Shown: positions 43 to 37,108 of the stretch, one piece after another
How the letters are laid out: the number at the start of each line of letters is the position of its first letter
Numbering within the stretch: the first letter of the stretch is position 1
From: Candidatus Zymogenus saltonus
GTDB lineage: Bacteria > Desulfobacterota > Zymogenia > Zymogenales > Zymogenaceae
Assembly (NCBI GenBank): GCA_016929395.1
Contig: JAFGIX010000047.1
Coordinates: 1 to 39,205 of the forward strand
Direction: 5' to 3'
Length of the DNA stretch: 39,205 nt
The notes under the pieces: model-generated
Told to the model about the DNA's origin: nothing
What the model saw: only the letters and a program-made list of their open reading frames with translations
The model's database searches: none
Position numbers and translations under genes: made by a program

Positions 43-117
43 TGGAGCCGGAGGGGGGAGTTGAACCCCCGACCTGATGATTACGAATCAACTGCTCTAC
101 CTCTGAGCTACTCCGGC
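43..117 (-). tRNA. tRNA-Thr, anticodon CGT
   Basis: Read on the minus strand this folds as a full cloverleaf with a GCCGGAG/CTCCGGC acceptor stem, a D-arm closed by GCTC/GAGC, and a T-arm of GGGGG, a TTCAACT loop and CCCCC. The 3' CCA is encoded. The seven-base anticodon loop TTCGTAA gives anticodon CGT, which reads the threonine codon ACG. The anticodon stem GTTGA/TCATC has one T-T mismatch at its second pair. No neighbouring tRNA is visible, so it appears to be a single-gene unit. Confidence 0.95.
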
Positions 118-8238: not shown

Positions 8239-9426
8239 CTACTTCCTGCTTATTATATAATTATATGCCGAGAGAGCGGCCTTCGCGCCCTCCCCCGTCG
8301 CTATTATCACCTGTTTGAACAGGACATCGGTGACGTCACCGGCGGCGAAGACCCCGGCCATCCCCGTCCTGCACTGGGAATCGACGACGATCTCGCCTAT
8401 CGCATTTGTGGTCAGGGTGTCCACCACGAGCTCCGAGTTGGGGAGAAGCCCTATCTCGATGAAGACCCCGTCCACCTCGAGAACCCTTGTATTGCCGTCT
8501 TTCAGGGACTTTATCTCTATACCGGAAACCACCTTGTCCCCCTTGATGCCGAGCGTGTTGTGCTCGGTGATGATCTCCGATTTTTCGGAAGCCATAACCT
8601 TGTCTATCAATATCGGATCCCCCGTAAGGGGCGTCAGCGATATCAGGTACACTTTTTTTGCCACGTTGATGAGATCCAGGGCGGCCTCCAGGGCCGAATT
8701 GCCCCCTCCCACCACTGCGGCCTTAAGCCCCTTGAACAGGGGGGCGTCGCAGGTCGAGCAGTACGCCACGCCCTTGCCGACCAGCTCCCTTTCCCCCGGA
8801 ACGCCCAGCGATCTCGGGCGCTTTCCCATCGCCAGGATGACCGTCTTTGCGTTGTAAAGGGCGCCGTCGTCGCAAAAGACCTTCTTTATCGAGCCGGCGA
8901 GGTCTACCGATACCACCTCGACCCCCTCCATCTTCTCGACCCCGTATTTCCCGACGTGCTCTTCGAACTTCGAGATGAGTTCCACGGTGTCGATCTCTGA
9001 GAACCCGAGGTAGTTGTCTATGTCGTAGGTCCAGGTTACCTGTCCCCCGATATCCTTGCTGATGATAATGGTCTTCATGAGCTTTCTGGCGGCGTATATG
9101 GCGGCGCTCAGGCCCGCCGGCCCGCCCCCTATTATTATCAGGTCGTATATCTGCGGCGCATCTCCCGGCCTCGGCCTGCCCAGCTTGTCCCAGAGCTCGC
9201 CTACCGCCTCCAGGGTAACGAGGTTGCCGTAGCCCCCTATCGGCTCACCGCCCACGATTATCTGCGGAAGGGAGCCGCTGCCTGTTGCGGCCTTCATCTC
9301 CTTCCACCCCTCGGACCTCGGCTCCACTTCTATCTCGTGAAACTCTATTCCCTTTTCGGTCAAGAACGCCTTTGCCCTGCTGCAAAAGGGACACCCCCTA
9401 AGGGTATATATCGTTACGCCTTTCAT
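8239..9426 (-). CDS. glutaredoxin-thioredoxin reductase fusion
   Basis: A 395-residue fusion. Residues 1-80 are a glutaredoxin/NrdH-like domain with CPFC (C12, C15) and SLPQIIVGG, the cis-proline and glutathione-loop region. Residues 92-395 are a thioredoxin reductase with the FAD motif IIIGGGPAGLSAA, the redox pair CSTC (C223, C226), a second nucleotide motif VVGGGNSALEAA and the C-terminal FAAGDVTD motif. The enzyme would move electrons from a pyridine nucleotide through FAD and the CXXC to its own glutaredoxin domain, and possibly to the selenocysteine glutaredoxin encoded 26 bases upstream. The NAD(P)H preference cannot be settled by eye. It lies last in a unit with a molybdoprotein, rubredoxin and that glutaredoxin. 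Confidence 0.88.
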   Translation of the reverse strand: MKGVTIYTLRGCPFCSRAKAFLTEKGIEFHEIEVEPRSEGWKEMKAATGSGSLPQIIVGGEPIGGYGNLVTLEAVGELWDKLGRPRPGDAPQIYDLIIIGGGPAGLSAAIYAARKLMKTIIISKDIGGQVTWTYDIDNYLGFSEIDTVELISKFEEHVGKYGVEKMEGVEVVSVDLAGSIKKVFCDDGALYNAKTVILAMGKRPRSLGVPGERELVGKGVAYCSTCDAPLFKGLKAAVVGGGNSALEAALDLINVAKKVYLISLTPLTGDPILIDKVMASEKSEIITEHNTLGIKGDKVVSGIEIKSLKDGNTRVLEVDGVFIEIGLLPNSELVVDTLTTNAIGEIVVDSQCRTGMAGVFAAGDVTDVLFKQVIIATGEGAKAALSAYNYIISRK

Positions 9427-9452: not shown

Positions 9453-9692
9453 CTATCCAAGGAGTTCCTCTATCCGCCCCTTGTCAAAACCGACGATTAC
9501 CTCATCGCCAATCTTGATTACCGGGACGCTAAGCCCGCCCTCGGTCAACTTCCTCATTTCTTCCATGGCCTCGTTATCCGAGGTCACGTCATGGTCCACA
9601 TATTCGATCCCCTTCTGCGAAAGGAACTCTCTCGCCCTCTTGCAAAAGGGTCACGTGGGAGTTGAAAATAGAGTTACCTTCTTCTGCTCCAT
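9453..9692 (-). CDS. Uxx-star type glutaredoxin-like selenoprotein (in-frame UGA = Sec14)
   Basis: The 79-residue frame is interrupted only by TGA at 9651-9653, exactly where the first Cys of a glutaredoxin CPFC motif belongs: residues 9-19 read FSTPT-U-PFCKR. After the TGA the frame runs on as a complete glutaredoxin domain, including SVPVIKIGDEVIVGF (cis-proline loop), to a TAG. Directly 3' of the UGA a stem-loop fits a bacterial SECIS, listed separately. The family is known to use selenocysteine at this position. An ordinary stop would leave a 13-residue peptide and an unstarted domain. AGGAGG lies upstream of the ATG at 9692. A sequencing error from TGC or TGT is the main alternative. The gene sits between rubredoxin and the thioredoxin reductase fusion. 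Confidence 0.85.
9617..9635 (-). promoter_or_regulatory. SECIS-like stem-loop downstream of the Sec UGA
   Basis: On the minus strand GCGAGA (9635-9630) pairs with TTTCGC (9622-9617), including one G-T pair, around the loop GAGTTCC. The loop begins 22 bases after the UGA and its first base is G. A short stem, that distance and an early loop G are the features of bacterial SelB-binding SECIS elements. Confidence 0.65.
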
Positions 9693-9749
9693 TAAAAAAA
9701 ACCTCCTTGTTCTCTTGATAATAAAAACACCTTCCCTGTTTATTTGCGC

Positions 9750-9911
9750 CTACTCCTCTTTTTCAAACTCGTCCTTGGACGCCCCGCAGACGGGACAAAC
9801 CCAGTCTTCGGGCAGATCGTCGAAGGGAGTCCCCGGCTTGATTCCGCCGTCGGGATCCCCCTCGGCGGGATCGTAAACGTATCCGCATACGGTACATACA
9901 TACTTGTCCAT
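9750..9911 (-). CDS. rubredoxin
   Basis: A 53-residue one-iron electron carrier with the canonical two knuckles: C6-TVCG (C6, C9) and C39-PVCG (C39, C42), plus [14 protein letters not shown] and [14 protein letters not shown] between them. Size and motifs are those of a standard clostridial or sulfate-reducer rubredoxin. It would pass electrons to superoxide reductase (7399-7776) and to rubrerythrin-like peroxidases in the same island. An AGAGGAGG site lies upstream of the ATG. The neighbouring genes are co-directional and closely spaced, so one transcript is likely. Confidence 0.96.
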
Positions 9912-20615: not shown

Positions 20616-21500
20616 CTATCCGTGATTCGAGAGCTCTCGTTTCACGGTCTCCCAAATTTTTACGATCTCCTCTTTTATCTCCGGCGGCCCCGCCTCCATC
20701 AACGTCTTTGCCTTGCGGATCGAGTCCATAACCTCCAGGCTGTACGGGATCTCCCCCGCGACCCTTGCGTTCAGCTTCTTCGATTCGTCTTCTATAGATC
20801 TCGTGATCTCCCTGTTTATGTCGAACTTGTTTACGATGACCAAGGACAAAAGGTTGAACCGCGCCGCCAGCTCCAACACCCTCTTCAGGTCGTGTATGCC
20901 GCTTACGGTGGGCTCCGTAACCACGATAAGGAGATCGACGCCGGTAATGGAGGCTATCACCGGGCAGCCTATCCCCGGCGGGCCGTCGATTATGATAGTG
21001 TCGAGCCCTTCTCTTTCCGCGATCGCCAGCGCCTCCTTGCGGACCTCGCTGACCAGCTTTCCCGAGTTGTCTTCAGCGATACCCAGCTTCGCATGGACCA
21101 TCGGCCCCATGCGCGTCTTAGAGACAAAAAGGTCGCCCGACTTGTTTTCGACCATCTCAACGGCGTCCACCGGACAGACGTAGAGACAGGCCGCACACCC
21201 CTCGCAGAACTCGTCGACCACCTCGGGCGGATCGCCGACGATAGCGTTCGACCTGCAGACCCCGACGCACTCCATGCACCGGCTGCATTTGTCCTGGTCG
21301 ATCTTGGCAAGCTCCCCGCCGAAAAACTCCGTGGATTTCTCGACCTCCGGTTTCAGGAGCAGGTGGAGGTTTGCCGCGTCCACATCGCAGTCGCAGATGA
21401 CCTTACTGTCGATCAGGCTGGCCAGGGCCGCGGTGATAACCGTCTTTCCGGTACCGCCCTTGCCGCTAACTATCGCTACCTCTTTTACCTTCTTTTCCAC
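20616..21500 (-). CDS. MinD/NBP35-type ATPase with inserted ferredoxin domain
   Basis: A 294-residue cytoplasmic P-loop ATPase. The deviant Walker A is GKGGTGKT (13-20). A two-cluster ferredoxin insert follows, with C72, C75, C78, C82 and C99, C102, C105, C109, then IIIDGPPGIGCPVI (Walker B region) and VTEPTVSGIHDLKR. Such proteins occur in pairs in anaerobes and belong to the Orp complex in Desulfovibrio. They are thought to couple ATP hydrolysis to metal-cluster assembly or placement. The GTG start at 21500 is chosen because GGAG lies four bases upstream and it starts just before the conserved VAIVSGKGG; this overlaps the IscU-like gene by 35 bases. A longer frame to 21566 exists but is less likely. 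Confidence 0.88.
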   Translation of the reverse strand: MEKKVKEVAIVSGKGGTGKTVITAALASLIDSKVICDCDVDAANLHLLLKPEVEKSTEFFGGELAKIDQDKCSRCMECVGVCRSNAIVGDPPEVVDEFCEGCAACLYVCPVDAVEMVENKSGDLFVSKTRMGPMVHAKLGIAEDNSGKLVSEVRKEALAIAEREGLDTIIIDGPPGIGCPVIASITGVDLLIVVTEPTVSGIHDLKRVLELAARFNLLSLVIVNKFDINREITRSIEDESKKLNARVAGEIPYSLEVMDSIRKAKTLMEAGPPEIKEEIVKIWETVKRELSNHG

Positions 21501-22014
21501 TTGTCTCCATCCGCCGCGCAAAATCGTCTTCAACCAAATAGTTCTCACCAAGCTCCCCGCCGCCATTGACCGTTCCCTCGCTTACGGCGAACTCCCTCAT
21601 GATAAACTCCGTGAGGGCCTGCCTCAAGGCGGTAATCGACAGGAGGGAGCAGTGTCTCTTCCCGTCTGGAAGCTCTCCCAGGGCCTCTATCACGTCATCG
21701 TCCGAAATGGACAGGGCGGATACGAAGTCCTTTCCCTTTACGAGCTCCGTGGCCACGCTCGACGTGGCTATAGCCCCTGGGCACCCGAACACCCTGAACT
21801 TGGCGTCGGTGACTATCTCTCTCTCCCTGTCCAGCTTCAGAAAGATCTCCATGAAGTCGCCGCAGGAGGAATCCCCGACCCTGGCAAAGGCGTCGGCGTC
21901 CTCGATAATCCCGACGTTTCTCGGATTGAGGAAGTGGTCAAGGGCGATATCGGAGTAGATCTCGCCCCTGTCCCTTCCCTTGGCCCTGTCGTAAATCTCC
22001 TTAAAATCTCTCAA
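21466..22014 (-). CDS. IscU/NifU-like Fe-S cluster scaffold
   Basis: A 182-residue scaffold with the three cluster-binding cysteines in context: C51 in SSCGD (with the assisting D53), C78 in FGCPGAIATSS and C122 in KRHCSLL. The N-terminus has the family motif YSDIALDHFLNPRNVG at residues 20-35. About 45 residues after the core are divergent and partly acidic or basic. The start must be TTG at 22014: an in-frame TAG lies three codons upstream and no ATG or GTG precedes the conserved region. No cysteine desulfurase gene is adjacent. Its 3' end overlaps the ferredoxin-type ATPase gene, so the two are translationally linked, a hint that the ATPase takes clusters from this scaffold. Confidence 0.88.
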   Translation of the reverse strand: MRDFKEIYDRAKGRDRGEIYSDIALDHFLNPRNVGIIEDADAFARVGDSSCGDFMEIFLKLDREREIVTDAKFRVFGCPGAIATSSVATELVKGKDFVSALSISDDDVIEALGELPDGKRHCSLLSITALRQALTEFIMREFAVSEGTVNGGGELGENYLVEDDFARRMETSGKEGKRGSDS

Positions 22015-22387
22015 TTCAACCTACCAATTCAACGCTTTTTCACATCTATCTCTCATCACAGGGACATGATAAAATCCCTCATCCCATGAACCCGTTCTCT
22101 TCGACCGAGAGACCCTCAAGAAATCTCCGGCCTGAAACAAGCCGTCTCTCCAATTCCGCTTTCACAACCTGTATCAGGGGCTATCATATAAAACCGGGCA
22201 ATTTCCAAATACAGATATTTTTATAAGAACATGAACCTCAACAAAACGCCCCTTTTATCCACATGAAATGCAGCCCGCCGTTCTATATCCGAGGAGAGGA
22301 TGAGCTTTCGACAAAAGTAGTGTCCCGCCGCCGTATCTTTACGATGGTCGGAGTACCGGAACTCATTCCTGATTTGAAGAGGTTATG
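22015..22387. other. gap between the flavoprotein and IscU-like genes
   Basis: This contains no credible ORF. No perfect promoter or sigma-54 site is seen, though a promoter for the IscU-like unit is expected here. TATGAT near 22190 on the minus strand could be a -10. Confidence 0.35.
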
Positions 22388-23737
22388 CTATTTCCTCTTC
22401 AAGCTTGCGATGGCCATATCGGCCGCGTTGACAAGCTGATACGCGATGGGCGAAGCGGTCAGCGCGGGATGCGTCCCCATCTGGAACGTCGCGATATCGT
22501 CAATCGTCATGTGCTGGTGCAGACACGCACTGATGGCGTTGATCAGCTCCCCTCCACTCCTGGCCCCTATTACCTGGCCGCCGATGAGAACCCTGGTGCC
22601 CGCCTCGAATATCAGCTTGACCTTTAGATTCGCCGATCCGGGCATCCCACCGGGATGGCGGTTGACCGCCTCGGATTCGCCCACTATTATCGCATAACCC
22701 TTTTCCCTGGCGCCCGCTTCGGTCATCCCCGCCGCCGCAAAGGAGATGTCCCCAAGGATGGTGGAGTAGATGCCGATTGCGCCCATATTCGCCCTGCTTG
22801 GCCCAAAAAGATTGGCCCCGGCGATGCGCGCCTCCATCGTGGCGATGGAAGCCAGCTTCAGGCCGCTCGGCTTGCCGTCAAAAAAACTCACCTTTTCCGC
22901 GCAGTCCCCGCAGGCGAAGATGTTCTCATCGTTGGTCTGCATATAACGATTTACTTGGAAGCCTCCCGTCGGTCCGATCTCGAGCCCCGCCTTTTTCCCT
23001 ACCTCCGAATTCGCCTTTGCGCCTATTCCGAGGATCACCATGTCCGCGTCGATATCCTTGCCGCTTGCAAGGTTTATCTTTTCCACTTTCGCATTGCCTG
23101 AAATAGACTTAACCTTCTCGTCCAGCAGGACCTCTATTCCCTTGTCCTTCAGTATCTCCTCGCACTTAAGGCAGAACTCCTCGTCGAACACGAGCTGGAG
23201 GCAGTTTTTCTGCATCTCGACGATCTTGATGTTGAGGTCGCTCTTCCTCTTCTGGCACTCCTCGGCGAACTCGATGCCGATAAAGCCGCAGCCTACGATC
23301 ACTACGTTTTTGCTGTCTTCCATTTTGTCCAGCACGCCCTGGATATATCCAACGTCCTTTTCAATGGCGAAGACGTTTTTCTTGTCGACGCCGGGTATCG
23401 GCGGGACGAGGGGCTTTGAGCCCAACGCAAGTATGAGCTTGTCGTACTGGATCTCCTCGCCGTCCTTTGTCGTTATCGATTTCTTTTCACGATTAATGCT
23501 ATCAAGCTCCCCGATAACAAGCTTGATATTTTCCTTCTCGTAAACCGCATCCGGTATCAAATTGTTTTCGGGCTTCTGCACGGTCCCAAATATATAGGGT
23601 ATCCCGCACGGAATCAACACCTGTTTTTCTTTCCGCAGCAGCAATATCTCCTTGTCGGGATTATGCCGACGAGCGGTTATCGCCGCGGTCAAACCGGCCG
23701 CACTGCCACCGACGATTACCACATCAGATTTCATCAT
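22388..23737 (-). CDS. CoA-disulfide reductase/NADH oxidase-like flavoprotein
   Basis: A 449-residue pyridine nucleotide-disulfide oxidoreductase. The FAD motif VVIVGGSAAGLTAA starts near residue 6. The single redox cysteine C44 sits in LIPCGIPYIFG, as in CoA-disulfide reductases, NADH oxidases and NADH:polysulfide reductases. The NAD motif VVIVGCGFIGIEFAEE is near 145, the FAD-proximal IFACGDCAE near 300, and the dimerisation domain has PGGMPGSANLK and HPALTASPI. The substrate (CoA disulfide, polysulfide or oxygen) cannot be told by sequence reading. The start overlaps the end of the second ferredoxin-type ATPase by 14 bases, so it may supply electrons or sulfane sulfur to the cluster machinery; that is inference. 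Confidence 0.85.
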   Translation of the reverse strand: MMKSDVVIVGGSAAGLTAAITARRHNPDKEILLLRKEKQVLIPCGIPYIFGTVQKPENNLIPDAVYEKENIKLVIGELDSINREKKSITTKDGEEIQYDKLILALGSKPLVPPIPGVDKKNVFAIEKDVGYIQGVLDKMEDSKNVVIVGCGFIGIEFAEECQKRKSDLNIKIVEMQKNCLQLVFDEEFCLKCEEILKDKGIEVLLDEKVKSISGNAKVEKINLASGKDIDADMVILGIGAKANSEVGKKAGLEIGPTGGFQVNRYMQTNDENIFACGDCAEKVSFFDGKPSGLKLASIATMEARIAGANLFGPSRANMGAIGIYSTILGDISFAAAGMTEAGAREKGYAIIVGESEAVNRHPGGMPGSANLKVKLIFEAGTRVLIGGQVIGARSGGELINAISACLHQHMTIDDIATFQMGTHPALTASPIAYQLVNAADMAIASLKRK

Positions 23738-24632
23738 ACTGATCTCCTCTATATAAAATTACTCTGTTAAGAAGCTCTCTAAAGAGATTTTTCATCTCCA
23801 TATCTTCATCGATAAGCAGCCCGCCCCTCGAAATAATCTCGGCGATGGACCTCCTAAGGGGTATCTCCGCCAGAACCGTAAGCTTTTTATCCTCCATATA
23901 TTCCAGAAGCTCCCTTCCCCTTTCATCATCCTGGTACCTGTTTATGACGATACCGAAGGGAAGGCCGAGGGTCTCGACCATCCCCACAGCAAGCTTGAGG
24001 TCGTTAAGGCCGAAGGGCGTGGGCTCGGTAACCAGGACGACATAATCGGTATCCCTCACCGCCTCGATGACGGGACACGAGGTCCCGGGCGACGCATCGA
24101 TGAACACAATATCGTCACCTTTGGCGGCGCTCTCTATCCTCTCCCTGACTATCTTGATCAGCGGGGGAGACATGTGCTCCCCGACGTTCAGGACCCCGGC
24201 AACGTAGTTTATCCGGCCGGAGCCTCCGGCGCCAGCTTTTCCCTCGTCAATCACGCCGATCTCCCTCTCCCTCTCGGAAACCGCGTCATCCCCGCACACA
24301 ATCTTGCAGGTGCCGCAGCCGTGGCAGAGCTCATCAAAAACTATGACGTTTTTCCTCGTAACAAGAAGGGCGTTGAAGCGACATGCCTCCGCACACTTGC
24401 CGCAGAGTGTGCATTTATCGGGGTCAACCTTGGGAATTAGAGTATGAGCCTTGGTACTGTCTTCAATATCCGGCTTTAGAAAAAGGTGCCCGTCCGGCTC
24501 CTCCACATCGCAGTCGGCGTAAAAAACTCCCCTTTTTTCGCCGCCGTAGATCTCCGCCGCCAATGCGGCGAGATTCACTGCAACGGTCGTCTTGCCGGTG
24601 CCGCCCTTTCCGCTCGCTATGCTGATAATCAT
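23724..24632 (-). CDS. second MinD-type ATPase with ferredoxin insert
   Basis: A 302-residue paralogue of the ATPase at 20616-21500. It has GKGGTGKT (8-15), ferredoxin cysteines C74, C77, C80, C84 and C103, C106, C109, C113, then FIDASPGTSCPVIEA and VTEPTPFGLNDLK. A Gly-rich stretch (KAGAGGSGRI) after the ferredoxin insert differs from its paralogue. The presence of two such ATPases in one locus is characteristic of Orp-type clusters, where they probably act as a pair. It lies 31 bases after a NifX-like gene and overlaps the flavoprotein gene. Confidence 0.88.
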   Translation of the reverse strand: MIISIASGKGGTGKTTVAVNLAALAAEIYGGEKRGVFYADCDVEEPDGHLFLKPDIEDSTKAHTLIPKVDPDKCTLCGKCAEACRFNALLVTRKNVIVFDELCHGCGTCKIVCGDDAVSEREREIGVIDEGKAGAGGSGRINYVAGVLNVGEHMSPPLIKIVRERIESAAKGDDIVFIDASPGTSCPVIEAVRDTDYVVLVTEPTPFGLNDLKLAVGMVETLGLPFGIVINRYQDDERGRELLEYMEDKKLTVLAEIPLRRSIAEIISRGGLLIDEDMEMKNLFRELLNRVILYRGDQYDEI

Positions 24633-24663
24633 ATTAATACTATTTTCCGCTCCTGGCCTTTTC

Positions 24664-25038
24664 CTATATCTCTCTCAAACCTGCATGGGCGGCCGCGGAC
24701 GCCGATTCGAGGAGCCTCGCCTTGCCCGAACCGAGGGCATCTACCGCATCCTTGACGGTCGCCACATCGGCGGTATAGAGCTTTACGCCCCCGGAATAGA
24801 GGGCGTCAAAGGCGTTCGGTCCGAAATTTCCGCTTATAACCGCCTCAACCCCCTCGTTTATCACGGTTTGCGCCGCCTTGATCCCCGCACCTCCGCCGCT
24901 CGATACGGCATCGTTGGAAAGGGCCTTGAAATTCTGAAGGTCATCACTGTCAACGATAATGAAGTATTGACACCTGCCGAACCTCGGGTCAAGCCCCGAT
25001 TCAAGGCTGTCCCCCTTGGATGTTATGGCAATCCTCAT
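24664..25038 (-). CDS. NifX/NafY-like metal-cluster protein (third copy)
   Basis: A 124-residue protein of the dinitrogenase iron-molybdenum cofactor biosynthesis family, starting MRIAITSKGDSLES with the characteristic DPRFGRCQYFIIVD motif and a central VISGNFGPNAFDAL. Proteins of this fold bind metal-sulfur clusters; the Desulfovibrio orange protein binds a molybdenum-copper sulfide cluster. No nitrogenase gene is in the window, so nitrogen fixation is not implied. An AGGAG site precedes the ATG. It shares the typical HFGRC/RFGRC motif with the copy at 25345-25731, but not with the one at 27437-27850. Confidence 0.85.
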   Translation of the reverse strand: MRIAITSKGDSLESGLDPRFGRCQYFIIVDSDDLQNFKALSNDAVSSGGGAGIKAAQTVINEGVEAVISGNFGPNAFDALYSGGVKLYTADVATVKDAVDALGSGKARLLESASAAAHAGLREI

Positions 25039-25076
25039 CTATTATTCTCCTGTCTGTTCTGTATTTCTTAAGAAAC

Positions 25077-25316
25077 CTATTCCTTCATCATGCCGCTTCC
25101 GCACTCCGGGCATTTCTGTTGAAAGCAGGGAACCCCCCGCTGATGGGGCGATTTGGTCCCGCACTTGGGGCACACACAGTTTCCCCCCGGCCCCGATCCG
25201 GGCCTGTTTCCTCCCCCCGCACCCCCTCCGCCTCCACGGCCCGCTCCTACCCCCCTGCCGCCCCCGGCACCTCCTCCGCCGCCTCCGGCACCCTGTCCCC
25301 TTCCACGTGCATTCAT
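25077..25316 (-). CDS. Gly/Arg-rich small protein with C-terminal zinc ribbon
   Basis: A 79-residue protein. Residues 1-46 are almost only Gly, Ala and Arg and probably unfolded. The tail has CVCPKCGTKSPHQRGVPC and then CPECGSGM, two CXXC knuckles plus further cysteines, which should bind zinc or iron. Small proteins of this build are usual beside NifX-like and Mrp genes in anaerobes; no function is established. AAAAGGAGAT precedes the ATG. It sits between two NifX-like genes. Confidence 0.8.
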   Translation of the reverse strand: MNARGRGQGAGGGGGGAGGGRGVGAGRGGGGGAGGGNRPGSGPGGNCVCPKCGTKSPHQRGVPCFQQKCPECGSGMMKE

Positions 25317-25344
25317 TTTTATCTCCTTTTATATTTTCGGTTTA

Positions 25345-25731
25345 CTATTCGCCGCATCCGTCGTCATGGTCGTGAGCGCAGGGAACGGTCCCCTTGACCC
25401 TTCCGGCAAGGTATGCCTTCAGGATATCCTCGATCTTTCCGGCATAACCGGTTACCACCTCTATGCCCATTCCGTTAAAAAGCTCGATTGCCCTGGGCCC
25501 CATCCCTCCGGCGATCATCACATCGGCCCCGAGCGACTGGATGAATTCCGGCATTATCCCCGGCTGGTGGTTGTTGAAGTGGGGATTTTCGACCACCTCG
25601 ACATCGCCCGCCGACAATTCCACGGCGTCATTGAAATCCGCGACAACATAATATGGGCATCTCCCGAAATGGGCCGAGAGCCTCCCATCAAGCCCCAGAT
25701 TGTCCTCCGAAGCCATCACTATTTTTTTCAT
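25345..25731 (-). CDS. NifX-like metal-cluster protein (second copy)
   Basis: A 128-residue NifX/NifB-C-terminal-like protein with SAHFGRCPYYVV (about 19-30), NPHFNNHQPG, MIAGGMGPRAIELF and a His/Cys-rich tail (PCAHDHDDGCGE) that may bind metal. Of the three copies here this is closest in motif layout to the Orp orange-protein type. It follows Mrp by 23 bases and so is very likely co-transcribed with it. Cluster identity (Mo-Cu, Fe-S or other) is unknown. Confidence 0.87.
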   Translation of the reverse strand: MKKIVMASEDNLGLDGRLSAHFGRCPYYVVADFNDAVELSAGDVEVVENPHFNNHQPGIMPEFIQSLGADVMIAGGMGPRAIELFNGMGIEVVTGYAGKIEDILKAYLAGRVKGTVPCAHDHDDGCGE

Positions 25732-25754
25732 GAGTTTTTATTCTCCTGTTACTT

Positions 25755-26660
25755 TCAAGTTTTTGCTTTTTTTCGCACCTTTCCGACATCGAGCCTTTTC
25801 ATGAGAGAATCCATTATATCAGAAAAGGCCGAAAACGTCTCCGAATCCCTCAAATATCTGACAAATGGCCTCCCCGAATCGCCGCTCTCCATAATCTCCG
25901 TATCGACAGGTATCCTTCCGAGAAACGGGACGCCCATCTCTTTGGCCGCCTTCTCGCCGCCCCCAACCTTGAAGAGGTTTATCTCCTTTCCGCAGTGGGG
26001 GCATTTGAATCCGCTCATATTCTCGACTATACCCAGTACGGGAACATTAAGCCTCTTGGAGAAGTTGACCGATTTCCTGCTGTCCAGAAGCGCCACATCC
26101 TGGGGGGTGGTGACAACGATCGAGCCTTCCGACGATCCGATCAGCTGCGCCACCGAGAGGGGCTCGTCGCCCGTTCCGGGGGGTAGGTCGACTATCAGGA
26201 AATCGAGGTCTCCCCAGTTTACTTCCCCAAGAAACTGTTTGATGACACCGTGCTTCATTGCCCCCCGCCATATCACGGGGGTATCCCGATCCTCCAGAAG
26301 ATACCCCACGGAGATGACGGAAAGGCCCTCCATGACCCTTACAGGGATAATCCCCTCTTCGGAGCCGCGGAGCCTCTCGTCCTCCAGTCCCAGCATCTTC
26401 GGGATGTTCGGGCCGTGTATGTCCGCATCCAGAAGGCCGACTTCAAAGCCCTCCATCGCGAGAAAGACCGCGAGGTTCGCGGCGACGGTGGATTTTCCCA
26501 CGCCCCCCTTTCCGCTCATCACCATGATCTTTTTGCCGATGCGGCCGAGCCTCATTTTTAAGAGATCCTCAGCATGTCTCTCCTTATCTTTCTCGGTGCA
26601 GCTCTCGCTTGCGTTACATGTGCTGCATGTCGAATCTTTATCGCACTCTTTATTGCTCAT
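25755..26660 (-). CDS. mrp: Mrp/ApbC-type Fe-S carrier ATPase
   Basis: A 301-residue Mrp/NBP35-family ATPase. The N-terminus has a Cys cluster (C6, C12, C15, C21), then GKGGVGKS (50-57), [10 protein letters not shown] (78-87), [11 protein letters not shown] (157-167), [10 protein letters not shown] and the cluster-bridging pair C220/C223 in FKCPHCG. It would carry [4Fe-4S] or related clusters between scaffold and target. The upstream in-frame sequence has stops, so the ATG at 26660 is the only good start, although the ribosome site is weak. The leader carries a row of short repeats. It is followed by NifX-like and zinc-ribbon genes, in the order seen in Orp-type loci. Confidence 0.92.
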
Positions 26661-26665
26661 ATATT

Positions 26666-26743
26666 TACCAATTTCATCAATGTCACCAATGTCTCACCAA
26701 CGTCACCAATCTTTCACCAATACCCCGCCAATTCCCCGGCAAT
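26666..26743 (-). repeat. degenerate ATTGGTGA repeats in the mrp leader
   Basis: On the minus strand the motif (A)TTGGTGA occurs four times, with two or three weaker relatives (ATTGATGA, ATTGGTAA, ATTGGCGG), at steps of about 10-12 bases. The spacing is near one helical turn. It ends only a few bases before the ATG of mrp. Confidence 0.55.
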
Positions 26744-26923
26744 TACATATCTTTGCCCGATCTCCTTTGAAAAGCCGGATGTCCGCCCCGTCCCGCCTTT
26801 TTGTCGAAAAAAAGGAGTCGAGAAAAGGAAAACTGAGCGAGGGAGGCAAAGATCGTACTCCTCCCTCGCCCCCCCCCCCAACGCCCCCTCACACATCCTC
26901 ATGCCCCCCCACTCAAAACAGCC

Positions 26924-27307
26924 TTATTTTTTCTCCTCAGCGGAAAGCTCAGAGAGCCTCTTCTCCATAGTCTCCATTTCCATCCTGATCCCCTTGAGCT
27001 GACCTTCTATGAAGGCCCTTTCCTGTTCGGGATTCTGCGAGTATGGCGTGCCGTATCCCGTCCCGTATCCCGTGCCATATCCATATACCGGGGGCGCGTA
27101 CCAGCGCCCTCCGCCTCCCCTTCCCCAGGCCATGCCGCGGCCCATCCCGCGGCCCCGGCCTCCGCCAAATCCCATACCCCTCCCCATGCCGAATCCTCCA
27201 GCTCCCGGATTGGCATAACCCGGCGCATCGTATCCGGCACAGAAACCCATTCCCCTTCCGGTCATCGGCCCCATCCCCTGGGGACCTGTTCTGTCTCCCC
27301 TCGGCAT
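26924..27307 (-). CDS. DUF5320-like Gly/Arg/Met-rich protein with C-terminal coiled coil
   Basis: A 127-residue protein. It starts MPRGDRTGPQGMGPMTGRGMGFC, the hallmark opening of small proteins that accompany NifX-like genes in anaerobes. The middle is a run of Gly-Arg-Met and then Tyr-Gly-Thr repeats (GYGTGYGTGYGT). Residues about 92-127 form a charged helix suited to a coiled coil (ERAFIEGQLKGIRMEME onward). Function is unknown; a partner of NifX-like or Mrp proteins is possible. The ATG at 27307 has GGAGG eight bases upstream; the GTG three codons earlier would overlap that site. Confidence 0.8.
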   Translation of the reverse strand: MPRGDRTGPQGMGPMTGRGMGFCAGYDAPGYANPGAGGFGMGRGMGFGGGRGRGMGRGMAWGRGGGGRWYAPPVYGYGTGYGTGYGTPYSQNPEQERAFIEGQLKGIRMEMETMEKRLSELSAEEKK

Positions 27308-27436
27308 GATAAACACCTCCTTTATATGCTGTTTAACATATCTATCAACTCTCTACCATCATTAAATCAATTAATCTGCTACCCCTCCCCCACTATTTCT
27401 CACTCCCTGCCCTTTGCCGGTCCCTCATTCATTTCT

Positions 27437-27850
27437 TCATCTTCCCCCACGAAACCTCCTCCTACAAGACCCGAACCTATCCACAGGAATCGCCATGCTG
27501 CTCAAAGTCCCGTCTATATATGCCCTGATCGCCTCCCTCGCATTCCCCGCTATCCACGAAACGAGATCGATGCCGCTCTCGAGGAGCAGACTGCTGCACG
27601 TGCAATCGACTCCGCAGCATATCACGACCTTTATCCCCTCGTCCTTGAACCAGTGGGCGATATTCAATGGATGCACCCCGACAATCCTGACCTCTTCTTC
27701 ATCTACGACTTTTCCGTCCTCGACTGTGGCAAAGAGCATCTTTTCTGCCGTATCGAGCCTGGGCGCCACCCTCCACTCGAATATTGGAACCGCGATCTTG
27801 TAGCATTTCTTATCCTTCATGTATATTTTATATTGCAAATTGAATGCCAC
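27437..27850 (-). CDS. divergent NifX-like protein (first copy)
   Basis: A 137-residue protein with the fold pattern of the NifX family (KIAVPIFEWRVAPRLDTAEKMLFATVEDGKV in segments, then IKVVICCGVDCTCSSLL and ARAIDG-type helices). It replaces the FGRC motif by a Cys-rich CCGVDCTC stretch near residues 78-86, so its metal site must differ from the other two copies. The GTG at 27850 has GGAGGG just upstream; an internal ATG at 27820 has no ribosome site. It is the first gene of the cluster after the sigma-54 activator and the candidate -24/-12 promoter. Confidence 0.75.
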   Translation of the reverse strand: MAFNLQYKIYMKDKKCYKIAVPIFEWRVAPRLDTAEKMLFATVEDGKVVDEEEVRIVGVHPLNIAHWFKDEGIKVVICCGVDCTCSSLLLESGIDLVSWIAGNAREAIRAYIDGTLSSMAIPVDRFGSCRRRFRGGR

Positions 27851-29658: not shown

Positions 29659-31710
29659 TTATCCCCTCCTTTTGACGATCTTCTTGCCGAACGCGGAGAG
29701 GATAAACTCCACGGCGACCTGGGCCGTTGAGTTGTCTGCGTCCCGTTCCGGATTGATGCCCACCACCCCCAGTGCCACCATGAGGCCGGACTGGGCAACG
29801 AGCTCCATGGCGAGGTGGGTCTCTCGATATGTTATCCCCCCCCGAATGGGGGTGTCAACGCCCGACGCCACTTGGGAGTCGACGACGTCCATCCCCAGGC
29901 TGACGTAGATCCCCCCCGTCCCGCTTCCGGCGGCCCTGAGTCCCTGATAGATCGTCTCCTTCATGCCGAGGTTGTCTATGTCCTCCATCGTGAATATCCT
30001 GATCCCCGATTCGGAGATGAGATCGGCCTCCTCCTGGTCGATGTCGCGAAGCCCTATAATGGCTACGTTTTCGGGGGAGAGCTTCGGCGATATCCCCCCC
30101 ATCTTGAAGAGACGCTCGTTCCCCCCCTCCCCGTGAAAGCCGAGAGCATGGGCCAAGACCGAGCTGGTGATCCTCTCCCCCATTTCGTCTCCTCCGCCGC
30201 TTCCCCGATCATCTTTCCCCGAAATCTTAAAGTCGCCGTGGGCATCGAGCCACATGAGGCCGAAGGGGCCAATGATTCTCGCGAGTCCCAGAAAGACGCC
30301 GAAGCTCGCCGTGTCGTCCCCCCCGAGGATCAGGGGGACAAGCTTGCCTTTTATCGCCTCTTCCACGAAAGTAGCCGTCTCCTCAGAAATCCTCACGATC
30401 TCGCTCACGTTTTCATCGTAGTCGCCTCCGGATATGGCCTCGTCAAGCCGGACATCACCCCGATCATCCACGGTCAGGGCCAAGGATTTGAGCCTCTCCA
30501 CAAGCCCCGCGTCCCTGACGGCCCTGGGGGCGTGTCTCACGCCTGGGGATAGAGACCCCACCCAGCTCGGAACCCCGATGACGGCAACTCCCTTTAGATT
30601 GTCCAAATCCCCCTCCTTGGACACCATTTGTTTCTCCACATAAGAAGAGGTCATCGCGGCGAGGAGCGAGGCGTAGTTCATCAGAAATCCGAGCCTCATG
30701 CCAAGCTCGATCTCGCCCTTGGCCGTGGTAACGTCGACGATGAGGTGGTCGCTGGAGGCCCCGATGATCTTAAGCCTGTCGTCCACGGGGAAAAGCCCCT
30801 CTATCTCCACGTCCTCCCGCCCCACGTTCAAGATCGCTCTTGCCATCTCCCGCTTTGCTCCCTTGAAGGAAGATGAGGTGAAGTCAAAGGCGGGCTTATG
30901 CCCGAAGGCGTCCTGGCTTATCTCCCCAATCGGGACCCCGGGCTTATCCTTGAGCTCGATTACCTCCGCCTTAAGCATAAAGGCGTCCTGGGCAGTCCCG
31001 GGCCAGGGCCTCCTCTCTATCGTCTCTCGGCCTAAAAGGATCGCCTCTCCTATCCTCATGTTATTGACCCTCTTCGGCATCCCCCCTTCGCTGATGAGGG
31101 TGAGGGCGCTGGAGTTTCCCCCCGATATATATTTCAGCTCTATTCCGAACCTCCTCTCTATCTCGTCGGCGTAATCGACCAGAAGCCCCATGTTTTCCCT
31201 TGTGGGGATCACGCCGCCGTAGCAGCTGAGGTTGGTGCCCAAACCGACTATTCTGACCCCCTGAAAAAGCGCCACCTCCTTCACGGTGGGTATCAGGTCG
31301 TCCGGCCAGATTCCCTCCCTCAGGTCGCCGAGATCGACCATCAGGATTATGTCGTGGACTATTCCCCTCCTTATTCCCGCCTCGGAGAGCGCCCGGATCA
31401 CCGACAGCTCCGAGTTGAGGCTGATGTCGACCGAGACCACGACCTCGTCCGCCTCGGAGAGGGATGGGATGCGAAGGAGCATGATCGGGGCGTTTATGCC
31501 GTTGACCTTGAGGCGGCGGACGTTTTCCATCCTCGATTCGCCGATCCCCACGACCCCTCCCTTTATCATCGCCCTTGCCGCCTGGGGCATCCCGCAGGTC
31601 ACCTTGGTGACGCCGAAAACCTCGATGCCGAATCTCCCGCAGAGATCGGTGACCGCGCGAGCGTTCTCCTCGATCTTTTCAAGGTCTACCGTTACCGAGG
31701 GATTTGTCAT
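29659..31710 (-). CDS. orr: ornithine racemase fused to a degenerate arginase-fold domain
   Basis: A 683-residue fusion. Residues 1-370 are a PLP alanine/ornithine racemase-type barrel with the cofactor lysine in FGVTKVTCG, then GIGESRMEN, LGTNLSCYGG and ISGGNSSAL; it should interconvert L- and D-ornithine, the first step of the pathway. Residues about 378-683 match arginase throughout (LILGGDD, WLDAHGDF, TPIRGGITYRETHLAME). Metal ligands D489, H491, D493 and D608 are kept, but the GGDH His is D466, the HGMPL His is T515, the first Asp of SxDxD is G606 and the VEVNP Glu is G651. Arginase activity is therefore doubtful. The ATG lies two bases after the preceding stop. Confidence 0.87.
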   Translation of the reverse strand: MTNPSVTVDLEKIEENARAVTDLCGRFGIEVFGVTKVTCGMPQAARAMIKGGVVGIGESRMENVRRLKVNGINAPIMLLRIPSLSEADEVVVSVDISLNSELSVIRALSEAGIRRGIVHDIILMVDLGDLREGIWPDDLIPTVKEVALFQGVRIVGLGTNLSCYGGVIPTRENMGLLVDYADEIERRFGIELKYISGGNSSALTLISEGGMPKRVNNMRIGEAILLGRETIERRPWPGTAQDAFMLKAEVIELKDKPGVPIGEISQDAFGHKPAFDFTSSSFKGAKREMARAILNVGREDVEIEGLFPVDDRLKIIGASSDHLIVDVTTAKGEIELGMRLGFLMNYASLLAAMTSSYVEKQMVSKEGDLDNLKGVAVIGVPSWVGSLSPGVRHAPRAVRDAGLVERLKSLALTVDDRGDVRLDEAISGGDYDENVSEIVRISEETATFVEEAIKGKLVPLILGGDDTASFGVFLGLARIIGPFGLMWLDAHGDFKISGKDDRGSGGGDEMGERITSSVLAHALGFHGEGGNERLFKMGGISPKLSPENVAIIGLRDIDQEEADLISESGIRIFTMEDIDNLGMKETIYQGLRAAGSGTGGIYVSLGMDVVDSQVASGVDTPIRGGITYRETHLAMELVAQSGLMVALGVVGINPERDADNSTAQVAVEFILSAFGKKIVKRRG

Positions 31711-31712
31711 TT

Positions 31713-33098
31713 TCAGGCCCCCTTTTGATCAAGACCAAGGCTCATCTTCAGGGAGGAGAGAGCGCACTCCGGGTGTTTCTTTACCATCACCCCCGCCGCC
31801 GCCATTATGTAGTTGCTGTCGATAGAGACCTCGGCGTCCCCGGGCGGCAGGAGCTTTTTGTCCCTGATGTCCCTCCTGATCGATTTCAGGATGTCCCGGC
31901 CGCCATCGAGGCGGCAGAGCGCCCCCCCCGTTCCGATGATGCTTTTCACAGCCGTCAGGTCCCTCCCCTCGACAAGCTCGCTTCTCCCGAACGTCCCGTA
32001 GGCGACCTTTATCTCCCCGGCGTGGCGCCAGACGGCGAGGTCCACGGCCCATTTGCAGAGCAGGGATGTCCTCTTTACCTCCTCCTCATCCGTGGGAATT
32101 GGAGCTAACCCGTCTATACCGCCTTCCGCCGCGTCGACCGCTCCCCCCCCCCATTCCGCCGTGCTCATCTGTGACTGCTTCAGGATATTCTGAGCGTTGT
32201 GGAAGACTCCCAGGTCACCCTCCACCGTCCTCTTCGCCAGCGGCTCCGGGGCCGTCATCAGCCTTGTAAGTTTCGGGGAGCCGGATGTCACCGAGTGGAC
32301 GTCGGTGGTGGCGCCCCCCACGTCCACAACCATCAGGTCTCCGATCTCATCGTAAAGAAGCTCCGAGGCCGCCATCACCGCCCCAGGGGTCGGCATAACG
32401 TCCCCTTGAACCATCTCCTTTACCCTCTCCATCCCCGGGGCGTTGATTATGTGATCCGAGAAGGCCCGCTGGATAATCTCCTTTACCGGCTTCAGGTTCA
32501 GCTCGTCAATCCTCGGATAGACGTTGTCGCATGTCAGAAGCCTGAGTCGGCTCTCGCCAAAGATCCTCTCGATCTCCCCCTTGGCGCTCACGTTCCCGGC
32601 GTAGATGATTGGGATATTAAGCCCTATCGCTGAGAGGATTCTGGCGTTTTTTACAATCACGTCGCGCTCGCCGTAGTCGACGCCGCCGGCCAGAAGTATC
32701 AGCCTCGGCGACACCCTCTCTATCTCGGCGATGTCCTCATCCCTTATCTCTCCCACGGTGGTGTAGACGACGACCGCCCCCGCCCCCAGCGAGGCCTCGC
32801 TGGCGGCCCTGAGCGTCATGTCGCGGGTAAGCCCGTGGACGGTCATCTTGAGGCCCCCGGCGGCTGATGAGGCGGCCATCAGATTCGCCCCCTCGGTCTC
32901 AATCCCAAGGCGGGATTTGAGGTCTTCCATCGCCCTCGTGAGGCCGACCGTCACGTCCCCCTCGTCAACCGTCGTAAGGGATACCCCCTGTCCCAAAAAA
33001 GGGGCGGGAGAATCCCCTCCCCCCCCCTTCAGATCGAACGCCGAGAGCTTCGTTATCGTGCTCCCGATCTCCGCCACCAGTAAATCGGCCCTCCTCAT
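31713..33098 (-). CDS. GlmL/MutL-like reactivating ATPase for the B12 aminomutase
   Basis: A 461-residue ASKHA-fold protein with an actin-like phosphate-1 motif AEIGSTITKL near the N-terminus, a second nucleotide motif VVDVGGATTDVHSV near 250 and IIGTGGALCRL near 390. This family (methylaspartate mutase accessory protein GlmL) is found beside B12-dependent carbon-skeleton or amino mutases and is thought to reactivate them by exchange of damaged cobalamin. The gene lies between oraE and orr exactly as in clostridial ornithine clusters, so ornithine aminomutase is the probable client. Spacing is 11 bases from oraE and two bases to orr. A GlmS mutase gene is absent. Confidence 0.87.
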   Translation of the reverse strand: MRRADLLVAEIGSTITKLSAFDLKGGGGDSPAPFLGQGVSLTTVDEGDVTVGLTRAMEDLKSRLGIETEGANLMAASSAAGGLKMTVHGLTRDMTLRAASEASLGAGAVVVYTTVGEIRDEDIAEIERVSPRLILLAGGVDYGERDVIVKNARILSAIGLNIPIIYAGNVSAKGEIERIFGESRLRLLTCDNVYPRIDELNLKPVKEIIQRAFSDHIINAPGMERVKEMVQGDVMPTPGAVMAASELLYDEIGDLMVVDVGGATTDVHSVTSGSPKLTRLMTAPEPLAKRTVEGDLGVFHNAQNILKQSQMSTAEWGGGAVDAAEGGIDGLAPIPTDEEEVKRTSLLCKWAVDLAVWRHAGEIKVAYGTFGRSELVEGRDLTAVKSIIGTGGALCRLDGGRDILKSIRRDIRDKKLLPPGDAEVSIDSNYIMAAAGVMVKKHPECALSSLKMSLGLDQKGA

Positions 33099-33109
33099 CC
33101 TTAAAACCG

Positions 33110-35323
33110 TCAGACCTCCCCCCTGAGCCTCTTGACTATCAGGCTCGCCACGTTGTGGCCCTTCGTCCCCCTGCCGAAGCCGGCGTCCATCCCGGACTCT
33201 TTTGCGGTATCGTCGGTCACCTGCGTCCCCCCGGCAATGAGTATCAGGTCCTTCCTCAACCCCCGCTCAACGGCGAGATCGGCGAGCCTCCTCATGTTCA
33301 CCCTGTGTATGTCGTTGTGGGTGATGATGGTGGAGATGAGGATAATCTTAGAGCCTGTCTCCACGGTGGCGTCGATGAGCTTCGCGACCGGAACCGAAGT
33401 CCCGAGGTAGTGGCAGACAAAGCCGTACTTTTCGATCCCGCCGTGCTTTATATCAATGATCTCCCGCATCCCGACGGAGTGCTCGTCCTCCCCCACCGTG
33501 GCGGCGACGACCGAGACGTTTCTCTTTCTGATGTACTCCCTTATCTCGTCCTCTGCGACCAGCACCTCTTTTTTCGGGATCACGAGGTCCGCCCGTTTGA
33601 CGGCGAAGTCCAGTCTCCCCTTCACCTCGAAGAGGGTCCCCTCGGCCGGGTGCATCACCCTCCTGTGGATGACCTCAGGGTCTTTCAGCCCCATTTTCAC
33701 AGCCATCAAAAGGGCCGCCGCCTCCCCCACGTCGGGCGCTTCCGGGATCATCACCGTCACGCAGACCACCCCGTCGCCCGCCCACTCCACCTCCGGGCGG
33801 ATGAGGCCGGCCTCCTTTTCCTTTAACGGCGTCTCGAGGCGCCTCGCGACGTTGTCCTCCTCGTCCAGCTCGTCGATGTAGACGATCTTTCCGGGTTCGC
33901 AGAGGGTGCAGCCGTCGATCAAATCGCACGGCTTTTTCAGCTCCTCGGGGAGATGATTCTCGCCGAAGTGGCAGCAGACCGGGGCCATGTAGTCCGTCTC
34001 TCTCTCTACGATGCTTCCCGCCGCCACGCCGCCGTCGGCCGCCCTCTTTATCCCGTCGCCGACCCTCTCCGGGAAGTTGCCGGAGTCTACGAAGTGCCCC
34101 CCCTCCACCGCCGCGAAGTATCCCCCAATCTCCACGATCTCCTCTAAGAACAGCACCGCCCGCTCCTTTATCTCCCGAACCCTCCCGTCGAGGACGGGGT
34201 CTCCCTTCAGCTCCAGCATATCGGTCAGCCCGTCCACGCCCATCAGCGTCTGGCGGGCGGTGTTTACGCCGAGGACGTTGTTGTAGTGCCAGGGGACGTT
34301 TCTCCCCTCGTCCGGGGTGATGGTGCTCTGGATGTCTGCCGAGGTGAGCCGGGAGATCAATGTGTCCAGGACGTGGGTGATGGTGGCCTCCGCCGTGTCC
34401 GACTCCATGTAGCGGGTGTTCTGCTGCGCCCTAAACTTGAAGCCGTCAAAGAAGTCGCGCAGGGCGACGGCATACGGCAGGTCGATAGAGAGCTTCGGGG
34501 CCGGGGGCGCCGTCGGGGGAACGGTGGAGAGGGCGATGTTTTCTTTTGCCATCCCCGCAGCCAGGGAGAAGGCTGAGTTTATCCCATGCTGGACGAGAAG
34601 CTCCGGCATCACCTTCCACGCCTCCCTCGCCGTGGCGTTGGCGTTGTGGGCGCCGTCTATCTGGAGGATACCGGCGTCAGCCATCAGCGCCTTTGCGCAC
34701 GCGGCGTCCACAAACGAGCGGTGCATGTTGATGTTCCTGTAAAGAACGTTGTACTGGGGGTCCTGGTGGGCGCCGTTCACCCCCTCCTCGTTGAAGAGGA
34801 CGGCCATCTCCGGCCCGGCCACCCCGCTGACGTAGGAGTGAAAGTTGATCGGCCTTCCCACCTCCTCCTCGATCAGGTCGAGGGCCTTCCTCGACGCCCT
34901 GATCTGCTTTCTGCTGATCGGCACACCCCCCACCCCCTCCGGGGTTCCCTCGATCAGGCCGTCGAAGTGGGACTGGCCGGTAGTCCTTATCACCATGATG
35001 TGGTCCGCCCCGTGCCACGCGGCCATCCGCATCCTTCTGATGTCGTCCTCGAAGTGGCCGGAGGCGATCTCGGTAGTAATCACGAAGTCGCACTGGGGGT
35101 CGATGCCACCGAAATAATGGGCGGAGGGGAGGGGGACGGAGTTTTTCAGCCCCTCGGATGTGTCCCTGTACACGAACGGACCGATCTTCTGATTCGGGCT
35201 AATCTTCCTCCACGTCCACCCCTTCCTCTTGGGACGGTAGTCGGAAAGCCCCTCGATGATTTTTGCCACGTCTATCTTCTTGTCGGCCTCGAGCTTTATG
35301 GATCGCTTCATCGGTCGCCTCAT
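33110..35323 (-). CDS. oraE: D-ornithine 4,5-aminomutase, large E subunit
   Basis: A 737-residue PLP- and adenosylcobalamin-dependent subunit that shifts the terminal amino group of D-ornithine to give (2R,4S)-2,4-diaminopentanoate. The TIM-barrel part has EGTPEGVGGVPISRKQ and HGADHIMVIRTTGQSH. The C-terminal B12 domain has DEHSVG with H615 as candidate lower cobalt ligand and K626 in IDIKHGG as candidate PLP lysine. This 11-residue spacing equals that of H618 and K629 in the Clostridium sticklandii enzyme. GGTQVTDDTAKESGMDAGFGRG closes the domain in two segments. The ATG overlaps the oraS stop as ATGA. An in-frame ATG four codons later is also possible. Confidence 0.95.
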   Translation of the reverse strand: MRRPMKRSIKLEADKKIDVAKIIEGLSDYRPKRKGWTWRKISPNQKIGPFVYRDTSEGLKNSVPLPSAHYFGGIDPQCDFVITTEIASGHFEDDIRRMRMAAWHGADHIMVIRTTGQSHFDGLIEGTPEGVGGVPISRKQIRASRKALDLIEEEVGRPINFHSYVSGVAGPEMAVLFNEEGVNGAHQDPQYNVLYRNINMHRSFVDAACAKALMADAGILQIDGAHNANATAREAWKVMPELLVQHGINSAFSLAAGMAKENIALSTVPPTAPPAPKLSIDLPYAVALRDFFDGFKFRAQQNTRYMESDTAEATITHVLDTLISRLTSADIQSTITPDEGRNVPWHYNNVLGVNTARQTLMGVDGLTDMLELKGDPVLDGRVREIKERAVLFLEEIVEIGGYFAAVEGGHFVDSGNFPERVGDGIKRAADGGVAAGSIVERETDYMAPVCCHFGENHLPEELKKPCDLIDGCTLCEPGKIVYIDELDEEDNVARRLETPLKEKEAGLIRPEVEWAGDGVVCVTVMIPEAPDVGEAAALLMAVKMGLKDPEVIHRRVMHPAEGTLFEVKGRLDFAVKRADLVIPKKEVLVAEDEIREYIRKRNVSVVAATVGEDEHSVGMREIIDIKHGGIEKYGFVCHYLGTSVPVAKLIDATVETGSKIILISTIITHNDIHRVNMRRLADLAVERGLRKDLILIAGGTQVTDDTAKESGMDAGFGRGTKGHNVASLIVKRLRGEV

Positions 35324-35664
35324 GGGTCAATATCCTCCCAGTATTTTCCCTCGATAAGCCCCAACCCCGCGCTCCTGACGTCGACCTTGTTCTTTTGGGC
35401 GACCCGATAGACGATCCCCCCCGCCCCGCAGCCGAGGAGTCCCCGCTCCGAGATATTTGTCACAAGTCCCTTCGCCTCGATGCTCGAAAATCCCATCCTG
35501 AGAAGCACAGACCGCTCGATGGAGGGTGAGGTGTGGGTCCTCGCCTCCTCCACTATCGGCTCGACTATCTTGTTCAAAAGCTCCCAGAAGCGGTCCTTGA
35601 GCTCCTCGTCCGACAGTCCCTTTAACCTCTCCCGCCTCTGTTCGTAATCGTCGCCTCTCTCCAT
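35320..35664 (-). CDS. oraS: D-ornithine 4,5-aminomutase, small S subunit
   Basis: A 114-residue helical subunit that pairs with OraE. It has the family pattern RRERLKGLSDEELKDRFWEL near residue 10 and then SIERSVLLRMGFSSIEA, GLLGCGAGGIVYR and a C-terminal GKYWEDI. Length and order next to oraE agree with known operons. It starts 31 bases after ortB and its stop overlaps the start of oraE by four bases (ATGA), so equal translation of both subunits is likely. Confidence 0.93.
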   Translation of the reverse strand: MERGDDYEQRRERLKGLSDEELKDRFWELLNKIVEPIVEEARTHTSPSIERSVLLRMGFSSIEAKGLVTNISERGLLGCGAGGIVYRVAQKNKVDVRSAGLGLIEGKYWEDIDP

Positions 35665-35695
35665 TATTCCCCTGCTGTTTGCATATAAGATTCCT

Positions 35696-37108
35696 CTATT
35701 TCAGGCCGACCGCCTCCCTCACGCAGTCGGGGGTCGTCTTCGTATCTTCGGCCAGAAACCTGATCTCGTCATCTGTAATCTTTTCCCTGTCCTCGATACT
35801 TTCGAGGGCGTTTTTGTAGTACGATTTTCTGAGCCTTTCGAGGTCTACGTCAACAGCTTTAATCTGCGACGGATCCTCCGGGATTACGATCCTCACTCCG
35901 GGTACGTTCTCCTTAGGATTACCTCTCCTTACCTCTATCCCCATCCTTTTCGCGAGATTCAGCTGGGCTATGGGGTGCTTGCCCGCCCCGGTGTACTCGG
36001 TCTCCTGGACAACCACGATCTCATCCTCCCCCATCTCCCGCGCTACCGCAAAGGCCGCGGCCAGAGACGTGTTTCCCGCAGGCCCCCGCTCCATCCCCTC
36101 AAGCTCCGCCAGCGCCTGGGTAATGTAGAAGACCTCCCCCTGGGTCACCGTAACGAACCTGTCCATATATCTTAAGGGGCGGGCGGCGTTTTTCGGGACG
36201 TCCGCCCGGTCGGGCCAGGTGGCGAAGGGTATCCCGAAGCCGGTGTGCCCGGTGGTGAACGACTTCCGGTTGAAGTCGGTGTCCGACGCCATGTGGAGGC
36301 CCGAGAGGTCGACACTCGCGGCAACCAGCTTTGTGTCGGACGCCCCCGCCTTTATGAGCCCCCTGCCGGTGCCGGTGACGTTCCCCCCGCCGGCGTGGGT
36401 GGCGACGACGACGTCCGGAAAGCGCCCCTCCCTCTCCTTTATTTCCTTCGCCACTTCAAAGCCCAGTGTCTCTATCCCCAGGACGGAAAAGGGGGTGTAG
36501 AGGGAGGCGTTGAAGTAGCCAGTCTCTATGAGGATAAGGAGGAAGACGTAGAAAAGCTCCGGGCCGACGGAGAGCCTGATCACCTCCGCCCCGTACGCCT
36601 CGCACGCTCTGGTCTTCTCCGCTATCTCAGGCTGGGCGATACCCCTTCCGTCGAAGGCCTCCTGGACGATAATTGCGGGAAGCCCCTTCTTCGCCGCCTG
36701 GGAGGCGACGGCCGCCCCGTAGTTCCCGCTGGTGGCGGCGCTTACCCCCGGATACCCCTTCTTCCACGCCTCGTAGATAGACACTGAGGCCCTGCGGTCC
36801 TTGAAGGAGCCGGAGGGATTCTGCGCCTCGTCCTTCACGAATATGCGCCCACCCTTGCCTGGGTTGGAGACGGCCCTTACGAGGGCGGTGATGTTCTTCA
36901 GTTCGACCAGGGGGGTGTTTCCCACCGCCGTCTCTGACTGTATCTCGAAAACCCTTTCCAGGTCGTAGCCGGTCTTCGTCATCATCCCCTCGTAGTCGAA
37001 GGAGACGGGGCCGGTCTTGAAGGCGTCGTAGTCGATCCCCACCGAGCTCTTCATCACCTCCCCCTTCTTCGCCATGACGGCGTCGTAGCCCATATCGGCG
37101 GCGCTCAT
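35696..37108 (-). CDS. ortB: 2-amino-4-oxopentanoate thiolase, PLP (beta) subunit
   Basis: A 470-residue fold-type II PLP protein related to threonine synthase. The cofactor lysine is K103 in NPSGSFKDRRAS, the phosphate-binding part is THAGGGNVTGTG, and SAATSGNYGAAVA is also conserved. With OrtA it cleaves 2-amino-4-oxopentanoate with CoA to D-alanine and acetyl-CoA. A fragment ETEYTGAGKHPIAQLN near residue 373 is typical of OrtB. The ATG overlaps the ortA stop as ATGA and has a GGAGGAGGGG site upstream. The length is as expected. Confidence 0.94.
   Translation of the reverse strand: MSAADMGYDAVMAKKGEVMKSSVGIDYDAFKTGPVSFDYEGMMTKTGYDLERVFEIQSETAVGNTPLVELKNITALVRAVSNPGKGGRIFVKDEAQNPSGSFKDRRASVSIYEAWKKGYPGVSAATSGNYGAAVASQAAKKGLPAIIVQEAFDGRGIAQPEIAEKTRACEAYGAEVIRLSVGPELFYVFLLILIETGYFNASLYTPFSVLGIETLGFEVAKEIKEREGRFPDVVVATHAGGGNVTGTGRGLIKAGASDTKLVAASVDLSGLHMASDTDFNRKSFTTGHTGFGIPFATWPDRADVPKNAARPLRYMDRFVTVTQGEVFYITQALAELEGMERGPAGNTSLAAAFAVAREMGEDEIVVVQETEYTGAGKHPIAQLNLAKRMGIEVRRGNPKENVPGVRIVIPEDPSQIKAVDVDLERLRKSYYKNALESIEDREKITDDEIRFLAEDTKTTPDCVREAVGLK

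Follow-up and report, generated by a model that had tools for sequence, protein, structure and literature searches.

The question raised by this locus is whether an in-frame TGA at the first catalytic position of a glutaredoxin, found in a 39,205-nucleotide window (the whole stretch of DNA analysed) from Candidatus Zymogenus saltonus, is decoded as selenocysteine (Sec) or marks an error or a decaying gene. Translation of the minus strand from 9692 to 9453 with TGA read as U gives MEQKKVTLFSTPTUPFCKRAREFLSQKGIEYVDHDVTSDNEAMEEMRKLTEGGLSVPVIKIGDEVIVGFDKGRIEELLG*, in which the single in-frame TGA occupies the catalytic Cys of STPT-U-PFC and the second Cys (Cys17) is retained. The first-pass annotation had described exactly this replacement of the first Cys of a T-U-P-F-C motif, within an otherwise intact 79-codon frame preceded by a strong ribosome site, and these elements are borne out by the translation, by AAGGAGG just 5' of the ATG, and by a Pfam Glutaredoxin match (PF00462; E = 5.9e-20; 71.7 bits, cut-off 22.9) that runs across the TGA and thereby excludes chance. 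Structure prediction from the single sequence returned a glutaredoxin fold (beta-alpha-beta-alpha-beta-beta-alpha, mean pLDDT 87.8). As had been anticipated, the gene is missing from the mechanical ORF list, and a plain ORF caller loses a member of a redox cluster; among the listed read-through frames outside called genes in the window, no further in-frame-TGA selenoprotein was recognised by eye.

Features of the Sec-glutaredoxin locus and its immediate neighbours
Feature	Position	Strand	Basis
Probable Sec-glutaredoxin gene, 79 aa, motif T-U-P-F-C	9453..9692	-	Translation with TGA=U, Pfam match, predicted glutaredoxin fold
In-frame TGA, read as probable selenocysteine, residue 14 (U14)	9651..9653	-	Frame, U/C alternation, hairpin
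Ribosome binding site, AAGGAGG within the stretch, a few bases 5' of ATG	9701..9708	-	
Putative bSECIS hairpin GCGAGAG-AGUUC-CUUUCGC, 7 bp, +16 to +34 after UGA	9617..9635	-	Conserved in TGA relatives
Thioredoxin reductase with a fused glutaredoxin domain (CPFC); probable electron donor	8239..9426	-	AhpF/TRX_reduct models below their cut-offs; synteny
Rubredoxin, 53 aa, upstream, same direction	9750..9911	-	Synteny among the evidence

The genome, a 99.6% complete assembly of 3.76 Mb in 92 contigs, encodes a full set of Sec-decoding genes, including the selB and selC whose absence had been named as grounds for abandoning the Sec reading. The matches were to selA (593.9 bits), selB (397.1 bits) and selD (362.2 bits), the last carrying one in-frame TGA of its own in the motif GUAAK, and to the tRNA-Sec gene selC on contig C44 (74.9 bits), which ARAGORN identified as tRNA-SeC with anticodon TCA (UCA). 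Weaker RF01852 matches were considered as further tRNA-Sec genes and rejected at two loci, where ARAGORN found ordinary Gly, Cys, Leu and Ser tRNAs (L006) or none (L005), leaving the C44 match as the only tRNA-Sec among the loci checked.

Homologues alternate between Sec and Cys codons at the same column, as the first-pass annotation had suggested that an alignment might reveal. Within the order, the gene is present in all four genomes, with TGA in three (that of the window included) and TGT in one, and many TGA as well as many Cys homologues occur among 395 genomes of the phylum. A comparison sample of 86 homologues contained 43 with TGA, 28 with TGT and 15 with TGC, an even split that reflects choice from the matches, not frequency. 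On a tree of these sequences about 14 U/C changes were counted, at least seven of them forced by well-supported branches, while individual forks are unsure in a tree built on few columns. Named relatives in the contig scan came from Bacillota, Patescibacteria-type MAGs, two unclassified bacterial MAGs and one archaeal MAG. A sequencing or assembly error, or a decaying Cys glutaredoxin in which the TGA is an ordinary stop, might draw some support from a Cys paralogue with 55% identity on another contig of the same genome (G000:C1:31696-31920), which could cover the function. However, the same TGA recurs in two further genomes within the order and in dozens elsewhere, the remaining frame is intact, and a downstream hairpin is retained mainly alongside TGA; the conserved TGA in practice refutes such a reading, which is scarcely credible.

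Published constraints on the bacterial SECIS element (bSECIS) call for a loop of 3-9 nt with G in loop position 1 or 2, a stem of at least 4 bp, and a distance of 16-37 nt from the UGA (PMC13188914), and all 86 homologues were scored against them. The window's element falls within these limits, with 7 bp, the loop AGUUC and a distance of 22 nt. The hairpin thus lies downstream of the UGA as first proposed, while its description as a six-pair stem with a loop starting in G needs correction, G being second in the loop here. Most relatives have 8 bp and a GUU or GUA loop, and the element shared by TGA homologues is GCGAAAGA-GUU-UCUUUCGC at +16 to +34. The best bSECIS-type hairpin averaged -7.07 kcal/mol in the 43 TGA homologues vs -1.24 kcal/mol in the 43 with TGC or TGT, a difference whose p value of 1.5e-13 overstates independence, since the sequences are related and those with TGA are mostly closer homologues. 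A fixed 8-pair hairpin kept 7.1 pairs with TGA and 3.4 with Cys, and 34 of 43 TGA sequences, compared with one of 43 Cys sequences, did better than 95% of codon-order shuffles. Counted over 40 TGA sequences (three that lack the element at that register being omitted), the pairs from +18/+32 to +22/+28 form in 39-40; in the Cys sequences the pairs at +18 to +20 form in 4-14 of 43, and those at +21 and +22 in most. Compensatory changes occur at +17/+33 (CG, TA, AT) and +20/+30 (AT, GC), and two clostridial TGA sequences build an equivalent hairpin from different sequence.

Retention of the hairpin with TGA and its absence from most Cys sequences are strong evidence that it acts as a bSECIS. The TGA/Cys pairs offer a clean case in which a SECIS hairpin within a coding region comes and goes with the Sec codon. 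When the window RNA was folded in isolation, a longer competing hairpin was the minimum-energy form (-21.8 vs -15.9 kcal/mol for the conserved form). This competing helix partly uses +1 to +9, which would lie within the ribosome when the UGA is in the A site, and a paused ribosome should melt it because its 5' arm begins right after the UGA. One Cys homologue (L080, G074:C25, TGT) has a strong 8-bp bSECIS-like hairpin of -8.0 kcal/mol, which could reflect a recent Sec-to-Cys change, or chance. Four TGA homologues from G037 (L069, L071) and G197 (L073, L075) have the altered motifs EPG-U-LFS, QPG-U-GPC and ATG-U-ASC; three of them keep the same hairpin, in L069 two pairs are broken, and G197 holds five matches within one genome.

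Together, selA, selB, selC and selD, the U/C alternation and a hairpin tied to TGA agree with the initial proposal that the organism decodes UGA as Sec. Sec decoding of this UGA is strongly supported by comparative evidence and is almost certain, while its source of electrons and its part in the cell's physiology are inferred from neighbouring genes, the motif and the apparent lack of glutathione synthesis. A complex of SelB, Sec-tRNA(Sec) and GTP would bind the hairpin downstream of the UGA and deliver Sec to the N-terminal active-site position (residue 14).

Placement within the glutaredoxin-like families is less simple than the Uxx-star assignment made at first pass. The umbrella model NF041212 scores above its cut-off (74.6 bits; cut-off 66), in agreement with that label; families 1, 2 and 3 fall short (53.5, 51.2 and 45.3 bits; cut-offs 72, 100 and 97). 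TIGR02196 (GlrX_YruB) gives a better score than the umbrella model and narrowly misses its own threshold (86.2 bits; cut-off 88.55), and the NrdH-redoxin model TIGR02194 is well below (45.5 bits; cut-off 85.75). Because the motif is a canonical UxxC and no specific Uxx-star family is reached, the label is only partly apt, and 'Sec-containing glutaredoxin (UxxC)' describes the protein more accurately. A metal-ligand role has been suggested for the UXX-star family (PMC13188914), and the umbrella match would be in keeping with Sec serving here chiefly as a ligand for a metal or metalloid. That role is nevertheless very unlikely for a protein that has both active-site residues, falls below the models of families 1-3 and is surrounded by redox enzymes.

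Sec-containing glutaredoxins have been in bacterial listings since at least 2006 (PMC1794560) and are reported from Geobacter, Alkaliphilus, Moorella and Clostridium oremlandii (PMC1794560; PMC13188914; PMC7642778), so that a further example from an anaerobe is sound but ordinary and would be expected by a specialist. Those of the UxxC type from Geobacter sulfurreducens, Alkaliphilus metalliredigenes and Moorella thermoacetica (PMC1794560; PMC13188914) likewise have Sec first, a retained resolving Cys and full Sec machinery. The present protein differs from these three in its host and in its position beside a Grx-thioredoxin reductase (TrxR) fusion and a rubredoxin. The nearest solved structure is glutaredoxin 7c10 (E = 1.2e-16), whose chain can be aligned with residues 4-79 and has the ending VGFD...IEELLG in common with the present protein; we take 7c10, 7c12 and 7c13 to be Grx1 of C. 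oremlandii. That Grx1, a native selenoprotein of similar length, carries the motif U(or C)PXC, has H where the present protein has F in UPxC, and is the proposed reducer of methionine sulfoxide reductase A (MsrA), with glutathione (GSH) as its own reductant (PMC7642778).

A Sec-decoded but GSH-dependent glutaredoxin serving MsrA might be expected from this likeness and from the Cys MsrA encoded in the genome. However, MsrA lies on another contig, no match to glutamate-cysteine ligase was found with two family models (TIGR01434, PF04107) in the nearly complete genome, and the gene adjoins a TrxR, its recurrent neighbour; GSH dependence is unlikely. The Grx-TrxR fusion lies directly downstream of the Sec-glutaredoxin gene. 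A same-strand TrxR-like gene follows the glutaredoxin, in Sec or Cys form, at 13 of 45 flanked loci, distant genomes included and one locus being patescibacterial; the other 32 have no TrxR next door within the available flanks. At L054 (Sec) and L106 (Cys), the TrxR-like gene starts so close to the active-site codon (within ~240 bases) that there is no room for an extra fused Grx domain. NrdH-redoxins offer a precedent, being Grx-like proteins reduced by TrxR (PMC6187632). With these and GlrX_YruB-type redoxins the present protein has Grx-like sequence and probably TrxR dependence in common, differing from NrdH in its low model score and in a neighbourhood in which no ribonucleotide reductase was recognised. 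The downstream TrxR and its recurrent pairing, the missing ligase and the NrdH precedent favour TrxR over GSH, and TrxR is probably the donor.

The protein most likely functions as a TrxR-driven, GSH-independent selenol-thiol reductase. Its selenol would attack an oxidised target (a disulfide, sulfenic acid or similar), Cys17 would resolve the product as a selenenylsulfide within U-P-F-C, and the neighbouring Grx-TrxR with NAD(P)H, rather than GSH, would most likely reduce it. Judged from sequence and gene order, the account as a whole, a Sec-containing glutaredoxin with SelB-hairpin decoding and selenol redox chemistry, is highly probable, with TrxR as its probable donor. The wider cluster includes genes for desulfoferrodoxin, ferritin, rubrerythrin-like, peroxiredoxin-like and TlpA-like proteins, rubredoxin and flavodoxin, is largely conserved in the three relatives of the order, and suggests that the protein helps an anaerobe to withstand oxygen or peroxide. 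Tentatively, and at somewhat less than an even chance, Sec-glutaredoxin and Grx-TrxR may form a dedicated GSH-free, selenium-dependent NAD(P)H shuttle for the cluster's oxygen-defence proteins, in which Sec and Cys are swapped repeatedly while TrxR stays.

Further features were noticed elsewhere in the window. An ornithine fermentation cluster (31713-38480, minus strand) encodes a MutL-type protein, D-ornithine 4,5-aminomutase subunits, OrtA, a PALP-family enzyme (likely OrtB) and 2,4-diaminopentanoate dehydrogenase. Inside an ornithine-degradation cluster sits a 683-residue protein (29659-31710, minus strand) with an N-terminal alanine-racemase-type PLP domain joined to an arginase-family domain, a fusion that looks unusual. 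According to the ORF list, the region 20616-27850 carries a series of Mrp/NifH-like ATPases that have ferredoxin domains, along with small NifX-like proteins, several of them next to Gly-rich or Cys-rich neighbours, and a tRNA-Thr (CGT) lies at the window's edge (43-117, minus strand).
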